In this document: positions 7,661-15,580 of the stretch, one piece after another | Numbering within the stretch: the first letter of the stretch is position 1 | Layout of the letters: every line of letters begins with the position of its first letter | Source: Acidimicrobiaceae bacterium | GTDB taxonomy: Bacteria; Actinomycetota; Acidimicrobiia; Acidimicrobiales; RAAP-2 | Length of the DNA stretch: 37,989 nt | Direction: 5' to 3' | Assembly (NCBI GenBank): GCA_947456095.1 | Contig: CANGPX010000006.1 | Span: forward strand, 1 to 37,989 | Translations under genes and position numbers: made by a program | Notes under the pieces: generated by a model | Seen by the model: the letters and a program-made list of their open reading frames with translations, nothing else | What the model was told of the DNA's origin: nothing | The model's database searches: none

Positions 7661-7903
7661 ATGACGACCTACGCCATGAAACTCTCCGGAAACGGACAAA
7701 TTTCCATTCCAGCCAAGGTGAGGAGTCGCTGGGCGGTCACTGCATTGACCGTGGTTGATTGCGGTGATCATCTTGTTGTTCGACCGGCACCGGCCGATCC
7801 TGTGCGAGCCCTTGCCGGGAAGTATGCAGGCCGGGTCCGATCGACTGACGAAATTCGAGCAGCAGAGCGTGTGGCAGATGCGACTCGAGAGATGCTGCGT
7901 TGA
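7661..7903 (+). CDS. vapB: AbrB/VapB-type antitoxin
   Basis: MKLSGNGQISIPAKVRSRWAV swapped-hairpin DNA-binding motif; overlaps the toxin start by TTGA. Confidence 0.82.
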   Translation: MTTYAMKLSGNGQISIPAKVRSRWAVTALTVVDCGDHLVVRPAPADPVRALAGKYAGRVRSTDEIRAAERVADATREMLR

Positions 7904-8365
7904 TTCTTCTCGATGCTTGCGCAGTCATTGCCTTTTTTTGCTGGCGAGCCCGCCATGGAAGAAGTGACAGAACTGCTCGACAGTGAAGTGACCATCTTCA
8001 TGACTGCCACTGGAAGAGCTGAAGTCGTCGACTTTCTCATTCGCAATCTCAAGGTCGATGAAGACACCGCCCGAGCCGATCTCTCTCAGTTGCCAATTTC
8101 GGAGACTCTCGCCATCGACGCAAATCTCGAAGAGCGTGCTGGCGCCATTCGAGGGATGAAGCACCAACGAACATCACGCTGTCTGTCGATGGCCGACTGC
8201 TGTGCAATCGCCGTTGCGCAGCATTACCGCCTCACTCTGGCGAGTTCTGATGCAGATCTGCTGTTGACCGCAGACGAAATGGGCGTTGCCACCAAAAGCC
8301 TCCCCAATTCCTCAGGGAAGCGGTGGCAACTCCCACCGTCAAACAGCAATATTCAAGCGAACTGA
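7900..8365 (+). pseudogene. vapC: VapC-type PIN-domain toxin with an apparent frameshift at a T7 tract
   Basis: From TTG 7900: LILLDACAVIAFF, then T7 (7933-7939) shifts frame; the other frame continues AGEPAMEEVTELL...TGRAEVVDF...LSMADCCAIA...SSDADLL. Confidence 0.72.
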
Positions 8366-8372
8366 GCGCTGC

Positions 8373-9398
8373 TCAGCCACCTGAGGCGTCTTGGACGCGG
8401 GTCTTGCCAGCCGAGATGAATGGCATCATCGCACGAAGCTCCTGGCCGACCTTTTCGATTTGGTGCTCGGCACCTTCGGCCTTGAGCCGCAAGTAGTTCG
8501 GGCGACCGTTCTTGTTCTCTTCAATCCATTCGTTGGCAAAAGTGCCATCTTGGATTTCAGTCAGAACCTTCTTCATCTCGGCGCGCACTGCATCGTTCAC
8601 AATGCGTGGTCCACGGGTCAAGTCACCATATTCCGCGGTGTCAGAGATGGAGTAGCGCATGCCAGCGATGCCCTGTTCATACATGAGGTCAACAATGAGC
8701 TTCAACTCATGGAGGCACTCAAAGTAGGCCGACTCTGGCTGGTAGCCAGCGTCAACGAGGGTTTCAAAGCCGGCACGCACGAGCTCGGTCATGCCACCAC
8801 AGAGCACCACCTGCTCACCAAACAAGTCGGTTTCGGTTTCTTCGGTGAAGGTCGTGTCGAGCACACCGGCACGGGTGCCACCGTTTGCGTGCGCATACGA
8901 GAGCGCAAGTGCGTGGGCTGAGCCCGAAGCATCTTGGTGAACAGCGATCAAGCTCGGCACACCGCCGCCTTCGGTGTAGGTCCGGCGAACGAGGTGTCCA
9001 GGGCCCTTTGGCGCCACCATCGCCACGTCAATGAACGCGGGTGGGGTGATCTGGCCGAAGCGAATGTTGAACCCGTGGGCGAAGAACAGCGCGTCGCCCT
9101 CTTTCAGTGAAGGGGCGATATAGGTGTCATAGGCCGCCTTCTGCTCAGTGTCAGGAAGCAGCACCATGATGAGGTCCGCCCACTCACAGGCTTCTTTGAG
9201 ACCAAGCACCTTGAGTCCAGCATCGGTTGCCTTCGTAATTGACGAGGAGGTGTCACGCAGTCCAACGCGAACGTCGACGCCTGATTCCATCAAGTTGAGG
9301 GCGTGGGCGTGACCTTGAGAGCCGTAGCCGAGAATTGTGACCTTGCGGCCAGCGATGAGTGCGGGGTTCGCATCTTTTTCGTAGTACATCGTTGCCAT
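8373..9398 (-). CDS. ilvC: Ketol-acid reductoisomerase (class I)
   Basis: [44 protein letters not shown]. Confidence 0.96.
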
Positions 9399-9486: not shown

Positions 9487-10017
9487 CTACTGCGTGATGA
9501 GTTTAGGCAGGGCAACGAGACCAGTTCGGTGGAGTTGGTCAACGGTGTAGCCCGACAACAATTCTTGGAAGGCATTGATCTTGTCGGGGTGATCCGCCAA
9601 CATGACCGTAATCTCCCCCGCACCTGCGTCAACAACTTCAGCGTCGAAGTTTGCGCACAGGCTGATGGCGGTTGCCATTTGATCCGTTGGCACAGTAATT
9701 GAGGCGAGCAACAACTCTCGTTCCACCACTTGGTGTTCATTGACGTGACTGATTTCAACCACATTGATGAGCTTGTCGAGCTGATTGACAATTTGCTCGA
9801 GTGGAGCTGACGCTGCGTCAACCACAATCGTGATGCGGCTGAACCGGTGGCTGTCATCAGTTGGGGCAACCGCGAGCGAAAAGATGTTGAATCCTCGGCG
9901 TGAGAAGAGTCCAGCCACCCGGCTGAGCACTCCCGCTTTGTTCTCAACGAGCACCGACAGCACGTGGTGACGCTTCTCCTCTGCTGGGAGTTCATGGTCA
10001 ACGGCTTCTGGGGTCAT
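9487..10017 (-). CDS. ilvN: Acetolactate synthase small subunit
   Basis: ACT domain HVLSVLVENKAGVLSRVAGLFSRRGFNI; 4-nt overlap with ilvB. Confidence 0.95.
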   Translation of the reverse strand: MTPEAVDHELPAEEKRHHVLSVLVENKAGVLSRVAGLFSRRGFNIFSLAVAPTDDSHRFSRITIVVDAASAPLEQIVNQLDKLINVVEISHVNEHQVVERELLLASITVPTDQMATAISLCANFDAEVVDAGAGEITVMLADHPDKINAFQELLSGYTVDQLHRTGLVALPKLITQ

Positions 10018-11732
10018 GAGTGCAACCTTTGGCTCGGGTGAACGAGGACCTCGTCATTGGTGGCGCCAGCAGGCACCATGGGGAACACCTTTTCTGATGC
10101 ATCGGTGCGGAAGTCAATGACGACGGGACGGTCATCAATCGAATTTGCCCGCTCAATTGCCGAGGCAACATCGGCTGGGTCGTCGACCCGAATGCCAACA
10201 CAACCCATCGCTTCAGCCCACTGCACGTAGTTCGGAAGATCTGGCGACAAGTAGACCTCGCTGTAGCGCTCTTCGTAGAACATCTCTTGCCATTGGCGAA
10301 CCATGCCGAGATAGGCGTTGTTCAAGATCGCCACCTTGATGGGTATGCCTTCAGCCCGTGCGGTCACGAGTTCTTGGGCCGTCATCTGGAAGCAACCATC
10401 ACCATCAATGGCCCACACCGTGCGGTCAGGTCGGCCGACTTTGGCGCCAATGGCTGAAGGCACCGCGAAGCCCATGGTGCCAGCTCCACCGGAGTTGATC
10501 CACGTCCGGGGTTCTTCAAACTGCCAGTACTGACTTGCCCACATTTGATGCTGGCCGACACCCGAAGCCACAATCGTGCCTGCTGGGGCCAAAGCATTCA
10601 GCGTCTCAACCACCATTTGTGGCTTGAGCAGTCCATTGCCGTCGATCGGGTCATAGGCAAGTGGGTGTTTTGCCTGATAGCCATGCAGTTCGTCCCACCA
10701 CGCACGCAAATCACTTGGGGTAACCGACGCTGCAGCTTCAGCCAACGCTGGCACTGCTTCACTGGCATTGGCCACAATGGACAAGTCTGGTCGGCGAACT
10801 TTGCCGTGCTCAGCACGATCGACGTCTAAGTGAATGATCTTGGCCACTGGAGCAAAGCCGTCCAACTTGCCGGTCACCCGGTCATCAAAGCGAGCCCCAA
10901 GCGACACGAGAAGATCAGCACGCTGGATTGCCATGATTGCGGTGTAGTGGCCGTGCATTCCTGGCATACCAAGATGTTGTGGGTGCGTGTCAGGAAATGC
11001 GCCACGTGCCATCAAGGTGGTCACTACTGGAACACCCAGTCGTTCAGCAAGTGCTCGAAGGGCAGCGGACGCGTTGCCTTGCAAGACGCCACCACCGACG
11101 TAGAGCACTGGGCGCTTCGCTTCAAGGATCATGGCAATGGCTTGGGCGATGACTTCATGGTCGACGCCTTTTGTTGGACGATAGCCAGGCAGGTCAAGGT
11201 CAGCTTCAGTTGCTGGTCCGTTCCAAGTCATCATTGACTGAGCCACGTCTTTTGGCACGTCAATGAGCACAGGGCCAGGGCGACCCGTTGTGGCCACATG
11301 AAAAGCTTCCGCCACAATTCGGGGAAGGTCATTGGCATCGGTCACGAGCCAGTTGTGCTTCGTGATTCCTGATGTCACACCAGTGATGTCACATTCTTGG
11401 AAGGCGTCGGTGCCAATCGCTGCTCGACTCACCTGCCCAGAAACCACCACAAGCGGCGTTGAGTCCATGTAGGCATTGGCAAGCGGCGTGACGATATTGG
11501 TCGCTCCTGGACCTGAGGTGACCATGGCCACACCAGGTCGACCCGTTGCCAAGGCATAGCCTTCAGCCATGTGCCCTGCACCTTGTTCGTGGCGAACGAG
11601 GATGTGGCGAATCGACGAATCGAGAATCGGGTCGTAGACCGGCAGAATGGCTCCGCCAGGCAAGCCGAAAATAACATCGGTGCCTTGTTCTTCGAGTGAC
11701 TTGATGAGTGCTTGTGCTCCGGTGATTTCCAT
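10014..11732 (-). CDS. ilvB: Acetolactate synthase large subunit
   Basis: ITGAQALIKSLEEQGTDVIFGLPGGAILPVYD; TPP motif GDGCFQMTAQELVTA...NNAYLGMVRQWQ. Confidence 0.96.
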   Translation of the reverse strand: MEITGAQALIKSLEEQGTDVIFGLPGGAILPVYDPILDSSIRHILVRHEQGAGHMAEGYALATGRPGVAMVTSGPGATNIVTPLANAYMDSTPLVVVSGQVSRAAIGTDAFQECDITGVTSGITKHNWLVTDANDLPRIVAEAFHVATTGRPGPVLIDVPKDVAQSMMTWNGPATEADLDLPGYRPTKGVDHEVIAQAIAMILEAKRPVLYVGGGVLQGNASAALRALAERLGVPVVTTLMARGAFPDTHPQHLGMPGMHGHYTAIMAIQRADLLVSLGARFDDRVTGKLDGFAPVAKIIHLDVDRAEHGKVRRPDLSIVANASEAVPALAEAAASVTPSDLRAWWDELHGYQAKHPLAYDPIDGNGLLKPQMVVETLNALAPAGTIVASGVGQHQMWASQYWQFEEPRTWINSGGAGTMGFAVPSAIGAKVGRPDRTVWAIDGDGCFQMTAQELVTARAEGIPIKVAILNNAYLGMVRQWQEMFYEERYSEVYLSPDLPNYVQWAEAMGCVGIRVDDPADVASAIERANSIDDRPVVIDFRTDASEKVFPMVPAGATNDEVLVHPSQRLHS

Positions 11733-11771
11733 GGTGCTCCGAGTTGGGGATCTTAGGCCGAGAAAACAAAA

Positions 11772-11791
11772 GACCTCCCATTTGGGAGGTC
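11772..11791 (-). terminator. Rho-independent attenuator terminator upstream of ilvB
   Basis: Stem GACCTCCCA/TGGGAGGTC, followed by TTTTGTTTT on the minus strand. Confidence 0.85.
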
Positions 11792-11818
11792 AAGGCGCGA
11801 CGAAGAGGTGCCGTCGCG

Positions 11819-11857
11819 CTATCGAACTACTACCTCAAAGTCAGTGGTCTTGCTCAC
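11819..11857 (-). CDS. Leader peptide MSKTTDFEVVVR*
   Basis: GTG AGC AAG ACC ACT GAC TTT GAG GTA GTA GTT CGA TAG; three consecutive Val codons before the stem. Confidence 0.8.
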   Translation of the reverse strand: MSKTTDFEVVVR

Positions 11858-11895
11858 GAGTCCATTCTGCCACGCGAACTCCCCCCATGGCAACC

Positions 11896-13836
11896 TCATT
11901 GGTTTTCTTTCCCTTCCAAGAGATTGTTCACGCACGTTGCCGCAACCGCAGCTGAGCGTCGATGACTGAGCGCGCAAGCATCTACCGCCGCTTCGGTCTG
12001 CGACGTCACCTGTGGGTACGAGTGTTGTCTCAGGTTGCTCCACACCATCACCCGGTGATCAGTTACCGGCAAACTTCCCGTCAGCGCCACCATGGTGGCA
12101 GCCACGTAGCCAGCATTGAAGGACTTAGTCAAAATCACGATGTTGTCGACACCACGATGGCCAAGTGCTGCTTGGATCAGGCGAAGTTCTTTCAGCGTCG
12201 GCGCAGCAAGAGTTCCACGAAGAGTTTCTGCTTCAAGAAGGAAGGTGTCGAGTGCTTGCCGCTTACCAGTGAACGAGGACTGTCCATTGGCGTCGGGGAT
12301 GATTGCGTAACCACCGACCGTTTTGAACGGGAACTGCTCCATTGCTTCAAACAACAGTGATGAATAGGTTGGGTAAACCAGCACGGTATGCGAACTTGGA
12401 ATGAGATGGGACCGATGCGCAAACCACCACGGTTCATGCACAGACTCGGCGGGAAGTGCCGAATAGGTCAAGCCAATTGGCACAAGTGCGGCAATGAAGA
12501 CCGCTACGAGGCCAGCACTCGCGAGGTTGCGAAGTGTTGGGGTTTTGTCCAGAAGTCGCGTTGCCATGTGCGCATTCCACGCATCGATTCCCATGGCCAC
12601 CAATACGGCAAGAGCAAGCCCATAAAACACCACAAAGCGAGTCGGCAACATGGCATCAAACAGCGGGAGTCGACTCAGTTGCCGCATGGGCAGCAGGTTC
12701 GCCCAAAGGTTCGTTGAGCCAAACGCTCGTCCAAGTGAAAGCAGCCAGGCAATCACTGCCATGGCAAACATTGACCATGCAAGTACTCGACGCACCAAGA
12801 TCGCCGAAAGTCCCGTGACGACAAGGAGTGCCCATCCGAGATACGCGCCATTCAGATTTCGCCCTGAGCCAGGAGTACTTCCGCCAAAACTCGTTGAAAG
12901 TGAATGCACAATCGCCGACACGCCGTAGTGCGCGTAAGGAACAACTGCCCACGCTGGCCCGGTCACATGTTGTGGGCCGGCCAAGGCAAACCACAGCGGA
13001 TAAGCCAAACAAACCCCGACGACCACGAAAGCGGTGCCTGCGGCCTGACGAAGTGCGGCAAAGGGGAGCGCTGTCGCTTTCGGTCGAACGAAAGCGGCGA
13101 CCAGCAAGGTCGGCAGCGCAATTGCCACGGTCATCGCCAAGACTTCCGTGCCAATGAAGAACTGCACGATGGTCAAAAGACCAATGAGCAGCCCAATGGT
13201 CTTTGGCGTCTTGTTCTTCGTCACGACGAGGTCAAACAGCAGCGCCACCATGAGTGGCGGGTAGATCAGCACCGTCGCCATGAGGTGGCCACCTTGGGCA
13301 GGGCCAACGGTTGCAGGAAGGAAGGCAAAGATTGTGGCGCCAAGTAGTTGACCCGACACCGATCGCGTCAAGACTCGCAAACACAAAAACATCGCATACC
13401 CGCTCGCAACCGGCGCCAACAGCGTCGCCACATTGGCCGTCGCAAGAGGCCCAAGCAACCAGGTCACCGGAGCAGTCACCATGCCAATGGCCAACACAGA
13501 AGTCTGCGAAAGCAGATTGAATCCACCTTGCCCGGCATACATGAGGTCGCTCCAAAATGGCTGCGATGGATGGGTCAACAGATGTGCTGCGTACCCTAAA
13601 AACCACACTTGTTGCGAGGAGTCAATGCGCTGGCCGTGAAACATGCGCGAAGCGAAGTGTCCTCCAACGAACACTTGGTTGAACAACGCAAACGACAGCG
13701 CCGTCAGCCAAATAACCACGCCCACATGCAGCGCAAAAAGCCCTCGGCGAGCACCGAGCCATCGCTTGTTCTTGGTGGCGGTCGCCTCGTCCAAAGCGCC
13801 AAGCGTCGTGACGCCGTTTGGCGCCACCTTGGTCAC
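11896..13836 (-). CDS. Polytopic membrane protein, GT-C/YfhO-like, function unknown
   Basis: 646 aa, many hydrophobic helices; GTG start overlaps the ilvD stop by 1 nt (TAGTG). Confidence 0.75.
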   Translation of the reverse strand: MTKVAPNGVTTLGALDEATATKNKRWLGARRGLFALHVGVVIWLTALSFALFNQVFVGGHFASRMFHGQRIDSSQQVWFLGYAAHLLTHPSQPFWSDLMYAGQGGFNLLSQTSVLAIGMVTAPVTWLLGPLATANVATLLAPVASGYAMFLCLRVLTRSVSGQLLGATIFAFLPATVGPAQGGHLMATVLIYPPLMVALLFDLVVTKNKTPKTIGLLIGLLTIVQFFIGTEVLAMTVAIALPTLLVAAFVRPKATALPFAALRQAAGTAFVVVGVCLAYPLWFALAGPQHVTGPAWAVVPYAHYGVSAIVHSLSTSFGGSTPGSGRNLNGAYLGWALLVVTGLSAILVRRVLAWSMFAMAVIAWLLSLGRAFGSTNLWANLLPMRQLSRLPLFDAMLPTRFVVFYGLALAVLVAMGIDAWNAHMATRLLDKTPTLRNLASAGLVAVFIAALVPIGLTYSALPAESVHEPWWFAHRSHLIPSSHTVLVYPTYSSLLFEAMEQFPFKTVGGYAIIPDANGQSSFTGKRQALDTFLLEAETLRGTLAAPTLKELRLIQAALGHRGVDNIVILTKSFNAGYVAATMVALTGSLPVTDHRVMVWSNLRQHSYPQVTSQTEAAVDACALSHRRSAAVAATCVNNLLEGKENQ

Positions 13837-15527
13837 TATGCCCGGGTAACGGCGCCGAGATCAGCGCCAGTGACGAGCCGGGCAAATTTCGCCAGCACTC
13901 CGGTCTTATACCGAGGTTCGGGGTAGACGAGTACCAAGCGGCGTCGCTCAAGCTCTGCTTCGTCAACGAGCAAGTCAATGGAGTGTGCAGTCACGTCAAT
14001 GACAATGCGGTCTCCGTCGGCCACGAGGCCAATTGGCCCACCGTCAACGGCTTCAGGGGCGACGTGACCAATGCAGAAACCATGGGTTCCTCCACTGAAG
14101 CGGCCATCGGTGACGAGGGCGCAATCCGCGCCGCGGCCCGCACCTTTCATCGCACCAGTCACCGCCAGCATCTCTCGCATTCCGGGACCACCCTTCGGTC
14201 CCTCATAGCGAATCACGAGGACCGTGCCGGGTTCAATTGACCCAGCCAGGATTGCCTCCATTGCTGCGGCTTCACCATCAAAGACTCTTGCAGTGCCATC
14301 AAAGCTCAACGTGTCAATACCCGCAACCTTGACGACTGACCCCTTGGGTGCGAGCGATCCGTGAAGAATGGCGATGCCACCTTGAGCATTGATGGGGTTC
14401 GACAGTTCGTGGACGACGACACCGTCTGGTGCTGGTGGGTTGATCTCGGCCAAGTTCTCGGCCACGGTCTTTCCCGTCACTGTCATGCATGATCCGTCAA
14501 TAAGGCCAGCGTCGAGCAAGACCTTCATGACCACCGGCACGCCGCCAACCGCGTCGAGGTCGACCATGTGGAAACGGCCGTGGGGCTTCGTGTCAGCCAA
14601 GTGGGGAACTTTGGCGGCAATGCGGTTGAAGTCTTCCAAGGTGAGGTCAACTTCAGCTTCGACGGCAATGGCCAAGAGGTGAAGGACGGCATTGGTCGAA
14701 CCACCAAGTGCCATCACAATGGCAATGGCATTTTCAAAGGCGGCCTTGGTCATGATGTCGCGAGGGCGAATGTTTTCGCGCAGCAGGCGAACAACTGCTT
14801 CACCAGCTTGGAACGCGTACTCGTCTCGGCGACCATCAATTGCTGGAGCCGTTGACGATCCAGGTAACGCCATGCCAATGGCTTCGGCAACCGATGCCAT
14901 GGTGTTGGCGGTAAACATGCCCGCACAAGAACCCTCAGACGGGCAAGCGCCGCGCTCAATGAGCGAAAGCTCTTCGTCAGAGAGTCCGCCGACGGCATTG
15001 GCGCCAACGGCTTCAAACACACTGGTGATGTCAAGCGCCTTGCCATCAAGGTGTCCTGGCAGGATCGTTCCGCCATAGGTGAACACACTTGGAAGATTGA
15101 GGCGAGCTTGCGCCATGAGCATCCCGGGAAGCGACTTGTCGCAACCAGCAAAGGTGGCAAGTCCATCAAAGCGCTCAGCGTGCATCACTGTTTCAACACT
15201 GTCGGCAATCACTTCGCGACTGACGAGGCTCGCTCGCATGCCTTCATGTCCCATCGAGATGCCATCGGAAACAGCAATGGTGACGAATTCAAAGGGGTAT
15301 CCCCCAGCGGCACGAACACCCTCTTTGGCCCGCTTTGCCAACCGGTCAAGCGGCAAGTTGCAGGGGGTGACTTCATTCCATGATGAAGCAACGCCTATTT
15401 GGGGCTTGTCCCAGTCATCATCGGTCATACCAACTGCTCGCAGCATCGCTCGTGCTGGTGCTTTTGCTGGTCCGTCGGTGACCTCAAAACTGCGAGGCTT
15501 CATTGGGTTTGGGGTTGGGTTCTCCAC
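13836..15527 (-). CDS. ilvD: Dihydroxy-acid dehydratase
   Basis: [73 protein letters not shown]. Start taken at GTG 15527 with TATGAT 6 nt upstream; the track ORF extends to 15569. Confidence 0.94.
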
Positions 15528-15580
15528 GTTTCCATCATAGGCACCGCACTCAGAGCAATTTTCAGCCAAATTGACAAGCG

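Follow-up and report, generated by a model that had tools for sequence, protein, structure and literature searches.

The window, i.e., the whole stretch of 37,989 nucleotides that was analyzed, is part of an incomplete genome (G000; 80%). Among named relatives, the most similar IlvB proteins come mostly from Acidimicrobiaceae, Acidimicrobiales or other actinobacterial MAGs. The minus strand carries, one after another, ilvD, the gene of a 646-aa protein, a leader region, ilvB, ilvN and ilvC. The features of this strand, in the direction of transcription, are as follows.

13836-15569, minus strand: ilvD
11896-13836, minus strand: 646-aa protein between ilvD and the ilvB leader, without a Pfam match, membrane-like by eye
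11888-11893, minus strand: -35-like hexamer TTGCCA, 18 nt from the -10-like hexamer
11864-11869, minus strand: -10-like hexamer CAGAAT with TG just upstream; its spacing to the leader start is kept in relatives
11819-11857, minus strand: putative leaderless leader ORF of 12 codons, VSKTTDFEVVVR, plus TAG; the GTG at 11857 is also the predicted transcription start
11825-11833, minus strand: candidate valine control codons GTA GTA GTT
11795-11819, minus strand: stem 1, with arms GCGCGACG and CGTCGCGC and loop GCACCTCTT, supported by covariation and fold; its first base is also the last one of the stop codon
11762-11791, minus strand: predicted intrinsic terminator, GACCTCCC-AAAT-GGGAGGTC followed by TTTTGTTTTC, supported by covariation and fold; the hairpin spans 11791-11772
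10014-11732, minus strand: ilvB, acetolactate synthase large subunit, the presumed controlled gene, with its ATG at 11732 (Pfam TPP_enzyme N, M and C)
9487-10017, minus strand: ilvN, acetolactate synthase small subunit, overlapping ilvB (Pfam ACT_AHAS_ss)
8373-9398, minus strand: ilvC, ketol-acid reductoisomerase (Pfam KARI_N and KARI_C)

The -35 hexamer of the leader begins right past the stop codon of the 646-aa protein. On the plus strand, between a serC-like aminotransferase and ilvC, positions 7661-8365 hold an 80-aa ORF and, after it, the gene of a PIN-domain protein (PF01850, E 4.7e-11). The 80-aa ORF has no Pfam match, and its start resembles AbrB by eye. Together the two are likely a toxin-antitoxin system of the VapBC type.

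The leader ORF reads GTG AGC AAG ACC ACT GAC TTT GAG GTA GTA GTT CGA TAG. A preliminary description of the window had named a promoter, this leaderless ORF, two stems and ilvB, and each of these elements lies where it had been placed. The first stem, described as having 8 bp, is present, with nine pairs according to RNAfold. The terminator stem, described as having 9 bp, has 8 bp and an AAAT loop; the ninth pair (A-T) was discounted because only a 2-nt loop would remain. The 74-aa ORF in which a program-made list buries the leader is, as had been implied, a mechanical artefact; in the congeners L112 and L113 the sole in-frame start gives 12 codons. Between positions 11600 and 12100, the leader promoter is the only sigma70-like site (0.2 expected), and the leader terminator is one of 2 intrinsic terminators (0.4 expected). 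The leader RNA is predicted to fold with -36.7 kcal/mol, at z -3.4 relative to dinucleotide shuffles. A genome search with covariance model R1, which captured no more than the terminator stem because MAFFT had misaligned stem 1, and which was used for this search alone, returned a single strong copy of the leader and one further weak match (E 0.9).

The regions upstream of ilvB were then gathered from relatives, nearly all of them Acidimicrobiia, and duplicates were removed, leaving 128. In 127 of these non-redundant regions, a short ORF with Val codons is followed by two hairpins, stem 1 and the terminator, a recurrence beyond chance. At 75% identity, the alignable set is equivalent to about 61 independent sequences, and thus the pooled counts reported here overstate independence. 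Valine accounts for 19.8% of the leader residues, a count biased by the scan for ORF, hairpin and terminator, in which a Val codon was obligatory and Val codons raised the score. Because such a scan cannot alone prove a Val run, we rescanned the regions by structure only, blind to codons. In this rescan, most occurrences of GTA lay 10-17 nt ahead of stem 1, peaking at -14 (46) and -13 (32), and the stop codon was located at the start of stem 1 in 111 of the 128 regions, where about 42 would be expected naively. That homologues might lack the Val run had been named in the preliminary description as grounds for abandoning its reading; GTA is in fact among the last 8 codons in 126/127 leaders. 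The covariation analysis that it had suggested as a check shows that stem 1 and the terminator both covary, and the ten strongest mutual-information pairs all fall in one or the other. The opening base of stem 1, which doubles as the third one of the stop codon, co-varies with its partner (TAG:C 83, TGA:T 12, TAA:T 9). Stem 1 sets in about 14 nt past the first GTA, and the spacer between stem 1 and terminator is 0-5 nt in 122/127 loci. In a class of about 17 loci, which we refer to as class B (e.g., L032-L038), the leader typically extends to VVVGxxRR*, with its stop codon located within stem 1.

Across the 127 loci, the U-tract of the terminator is often interrupted (TTTTGTTTTC, TCGCAGTTTTC), and the letters CCTCCC/GGGAGG of the terminator are constant in most of them, though its outer pairs covary. 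In other classes and families of the phylum (L177-L179, L193, L196, L197, L200 and L201), stem 1 likewise begins at the stop codon; in L197, L200 and L201, the Val codons are GTC/GTT in place of GTA.

This pattern of conservation bears on whether the region might be a metabolite- or tRNA-binding RNA, such as a ppGpp riboswitch or a T-box, instead of a translated leader. RNAs of this sort do control ilv genes in other bacteria (PMC10272879). However, Rfam covariance models gave no match to the leader at the gathering score, and no T-box or ppGpp riboswitch at a relaxed threshold; what is conserved, moreover, is the codons, the stop codon and two hairpins, and not unpaired bases elsewhere. We consider such an RNA almost inconceivable here.

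To place the -10 hexamer, we used a generic sigma70 matrix that ignores the start codon. The hexamer placed in this blind manner ends 4-9 nt before an in-frame leader start in 102/127 loci, compared with 16.6% in shuffled upstream sequence. A Shine-Dalgarno core (AGGA, GGAG or GAGG) precedes only 6/127 leader starts, versus 98/128 ilvB starts. Based on this spacing and on the absence of a Shine-Dalgarno core, the start codon of the leader is predicted to be the 5' end of the transcript. The window and its congeners L111, L112 and L113 share a spacing of 6 nt, close to the mean of 6.3 nt that separates the -10 hexamer from the start site in S. lividans (PMC8079986). The wider spacing of 9 nt seen in 35 relatives may correspond to a 5' UTR of a few nucleotides. 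The leaderless valine leader peptide ahead of an attenuator-type terminator and ilvB, as first described for the window, is thus supported and conserved across Acidimicrobiia, including its Val run.

The Val codons of the leaders are themselves peculiar. GTA makes up 64% of the 338 Val codons in the leaders, whereas the ilvB genes of these loci use it for 2.7% of their 5392 Val codons. In the last ten leader codons, its counts by reading frame are 218:6:0. No codon shift of comparable size was found for Leu, Ile, Thr, Arg, Ser, Ala, Pro or Gly. Ahead of the Val run there is usually a Leu codon, but the genus of the window has other codons in its place (EVVVR, AEVVLQ, REVVPI), which identifies Val as the constant element. 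Among the 30 tRNA loci read in the genome, with ten further matches set aside, the tRNA-Val anticodons are TAC and GAC. Theory holds that sensitive attenuators require a particular choice among synonymous regulatory codons (PMC1183508). GTA may have been chosen for its rarity; a sensor consisting specifically of the rarest valine codon had no counterpart in the literature compared.

Could the arrangement be a structural relic, i.e., a terminator and peptide that are kept while a promoter or repressor sets expression and the Val codons are irrelevant? A substitution of leader codons in S. coelicolor ilvB, as summarized in PMC1262725, had no effect on regulation. However, a GTA bias of this size confined to one frame, together with the preserved spacing between GTA and stem 1, is hard to explain without selection, and in M. 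tuberculosis the leader codons do matter (PMC13236596). A relic is therefore highly improbable.

Taken together, the promoter spacing, the GTA bias, the covarying stems and the geometry from GTA to stem 1 point to the anatomy of a valine-responsive attenuator. As in amino-acid leader attenuators, the ORF is enriched in codons for the product and a terminator lies between the leader and the first gene; as in the leaderless ilvB leaders of actinobacteria, it is located directly upstream of ilvB and has branched-chain control codons and a terminator. We thus propose, with a probability of roughly 0.8, that ilvB-ilvN-ilvC is controlled by a valine-responsive, ribosome-mediated transcription attenuator; that is, the leader very probably switches the branched-chain amino-acid genes off when valine is plentiful. 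Sequence and comparison back the spacing between promoter and start, the lack of a Shine-Dalgarno sequence, the Val(GTA) run, both stems with their covariation, and the distance between GTA and stem 1; from these we infer the start site, translation, ribosome stalling and regulation.

In the proposed mechanism, RNA polymerase would begin the transcript at the GTG itself, so that a ribosome would initiate on a leaderless mRNA and translate the 12-codon leader, which ends Val-Val-Val-Arg-stop. When Val-tRNA is plentiful, the ribosome would reach the stop codon and cover the 5' arm of stem 1; the terminator would then form, and transcription would stop ahead of ilvB. When the Val-tRNA that reads GTA is scarce, the ribosome would wait on the first GTA, its front not quite reaching stem 1, which could therefore form right before the terminator. 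With stem 1 formed beside the terminator, read-through would increase. How stem 1 would reduce termination is the least certain step.

We assessed these two states with a folding model in which the ribosome is assumed to cover about 13 nt from the first base of the A-site codon. Across 104 loci, stem 1 pairs to 87.5% with the ribosome on the first GTA and to 0% with the ribosome at the stop codon; in this model, then, though only there, formation of stem 1 depends on the position of the ribosome. The terminator is predicted with a probability of about 0.99 in either of these ribosome positions, so that only stem 1 changes. Equilibrium folding thus does not explain read-through.

The preliminary description had proposed an antiterminator to account for this step, namely that upon stalling at the Val codons the first loop (ACCTCTT) pairs with the 3' arm of the terminator (GGGAGGT). 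The complementarity is present in the letters of the window, where seven pairs can be written, and the same geometry, a P1 loop with the 3' shoulder of P2, has been proposed for the Corynebacterium ilvB-II motif (PMC10272879), which we compared by its published description, no Rfam family having matched here. Conservation and other support fail, however. Using shuffled loops, shuffled arms and swapped arms as controls, and the loci outside the smaller class B set, we found that pairing between loop 1 and the 3' arm equals that of shuffled loops (z 0.01 ± 0.09) and amounts to -5.61 kcal/mol, versus -5.52 kcal/mol when the 3' arms are exchanged among species. The nearest relative, L111, has GCACCAACT in this loop and has lost the complementarity. 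Forcing the pairing is about 13 kcal/mol less favorable than the default fold. In addition, loop 1 is exposed in both ribosome positions, and pairing through it would therefore hardly discriminate between them. We consider this antiterminator very unlikely.

Nor did other pairings emerge. Neither the arms of stem 1, nor its loop, nor the leader codons gave a convincing pairing signal against either terminator arm, the lowest score being that of the leader with the 3' arm (z -0.24 ± 0.12), and mutual information in the alignable set revealed no third helix. An extension of stem 1 into the base of the terminator was also considered and rejected: at 104 loci it is no better than swapped controls (-3.11 versus -3.23 kcal/mol). 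In the window and in L111, stem 1 can be extended into the first bases of the terminator, which recalls the overlapping hairpins of C. glutamicum (PMC11857589). With no conserved alternative pairing, and with the terminator at 0.99 in both states, the mutually exclusive structure and terminator that characterize the classical mechanism were not found; we therefore do not file the leader as a classical attenuator of the trp type, although some unseen or tertiary interaction may exist.

Because no mutually exclusive antiterminator is conserved, we favor the notion, at slightly less than even odds, that stem 1 acts by interfering where the two adjacent hairpins meet. This resembles the 'fast attenuator' model of C. 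glutamicum ilvBNC. A stronger form, which is tentative and on the whole doubtful, is that there is no exclusive antiterminator at all: the ribosome position would set only the presence of a helix abutting the terminator, this helix would lower termination, and the rare Val codon would be the sensitive trigger. If true, attenuation by a neighboring helix would apply to Acidimicrobiia as a whole, and perhaps to the ilv leaders of other actinobacteria as well.

Alternatively, stem 1 might be a pause hairpin that holds RNA polymerase for the leaderless ribosome, with antitermination brought about by an invisible pseudoknot, a protein or a ribosome-polymerase contact. The conservation and covariation of stem 1 and its position 0-5 nt before the terminator would suit such a role, and pausing has been discussed for the H1 apex in C. 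glutamicum (PMC11857589). Pausing alone, however, leaves unexplained why stem 1 sets in at the stop codon, since a ribosome arriving there at the end of the leader would melt it, and no interaction partner was seen. We regard the pause hairpin as an unlikely, though not negligible, alternative to interference at the hairpin junction.

Leader peptides and terminators before ilvB were predicted in 2005 for Corynebacterium, Mycobacterium and Streptomyces (PMC1262725), and the actinobacterial leaders resembled attenuators lacking a part (Seliverstov 2005); mutants of S. coelicolor gave ambivalent results. The IlvL of S. lividans ilvBHC, MRTRILVLGKRVG, is transcribed leaderless (PMC8079986), and like the leaders described here it is a short ORF before ilvB followed by hairpins and a U-rich terminator. 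Unlike them, it has no run of Val codons, and its ORF extends in the direction of the first hairpin, whereas in the leaders described here the stop codon marks the start of stem 1. In our survey of the phylum, L183 encodes a peptide identical to this IlvL, and its first Val codon is GTA. In C. glutamicum ilvBNC, the leader start is 1 nt from the transcript start and the control codons are CUU (Leu) and GUA (Val) (PMC11857589); the start at the transcript end, the GUA control codon and the hairpin adjoining the terminator are shared features (PMC11857589, PMC10272879). The antiterminator and terminator of C. glutamicum have a GCC trinucleotide in common, whereas no shared bases are conserved in the Acidimicrobiia leaders.

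The M. tuberculosis ilvB1NC operon is similar in having a uORF with LVVI codons, a GUA control codon and a Rho-independent terminator, and its induction is codon-dependent, in that changing LVVI to AAAA abolishes it (PMC13236596). A mutually exclusive antiterminator has been proposed there, whereas none is conserved in the Acidimicrobiia leaders. The mycobacterial polycysteine uORFs, as summarized in PMC9031893 (citing Canestrari 2020), are likewise short leaderless ORFs that contain consecutive codons for the amino acid under regulation. They differ in that this amino acid is cysteine, not valine, and that, by the account in PMC1262725, a conserved terminator was not found in mycobacterial cys leaders.

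Given these precedents in Streptomyces, Corynebacterium and Mycobacterium, the arrangement belongs to a known actinobacterial kind. In the open-access literature, we found no publication that combines Acidimicrobiia, attenuator and leader peptide. What is new is the lineage in which the leaders occur, how large their GTA bias is, and that comparison across loci speaks against a conserved antiterminator. The lack of a conserved antiterminator helix had no counterpart in the literature compared, and bears on the old puzzle of the missing part. Leaderless ilv attenuators would thereby be extended to a largely uncultured actinobacterial class, with about 120 natural variants that allow a direct test of whether the helix adjacent to the terminator is itself the switch. 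In one clade (L032-L038, L042-L045, L047 and L048), the leader typically ends VVVGxxRR*, the stop codon lies in stem 1 (CCGGTAG), stem 1 is flush with the terminator, and the terminator could extend over the last bases of stem 1; this clade might reveal how the two hairpins compete.
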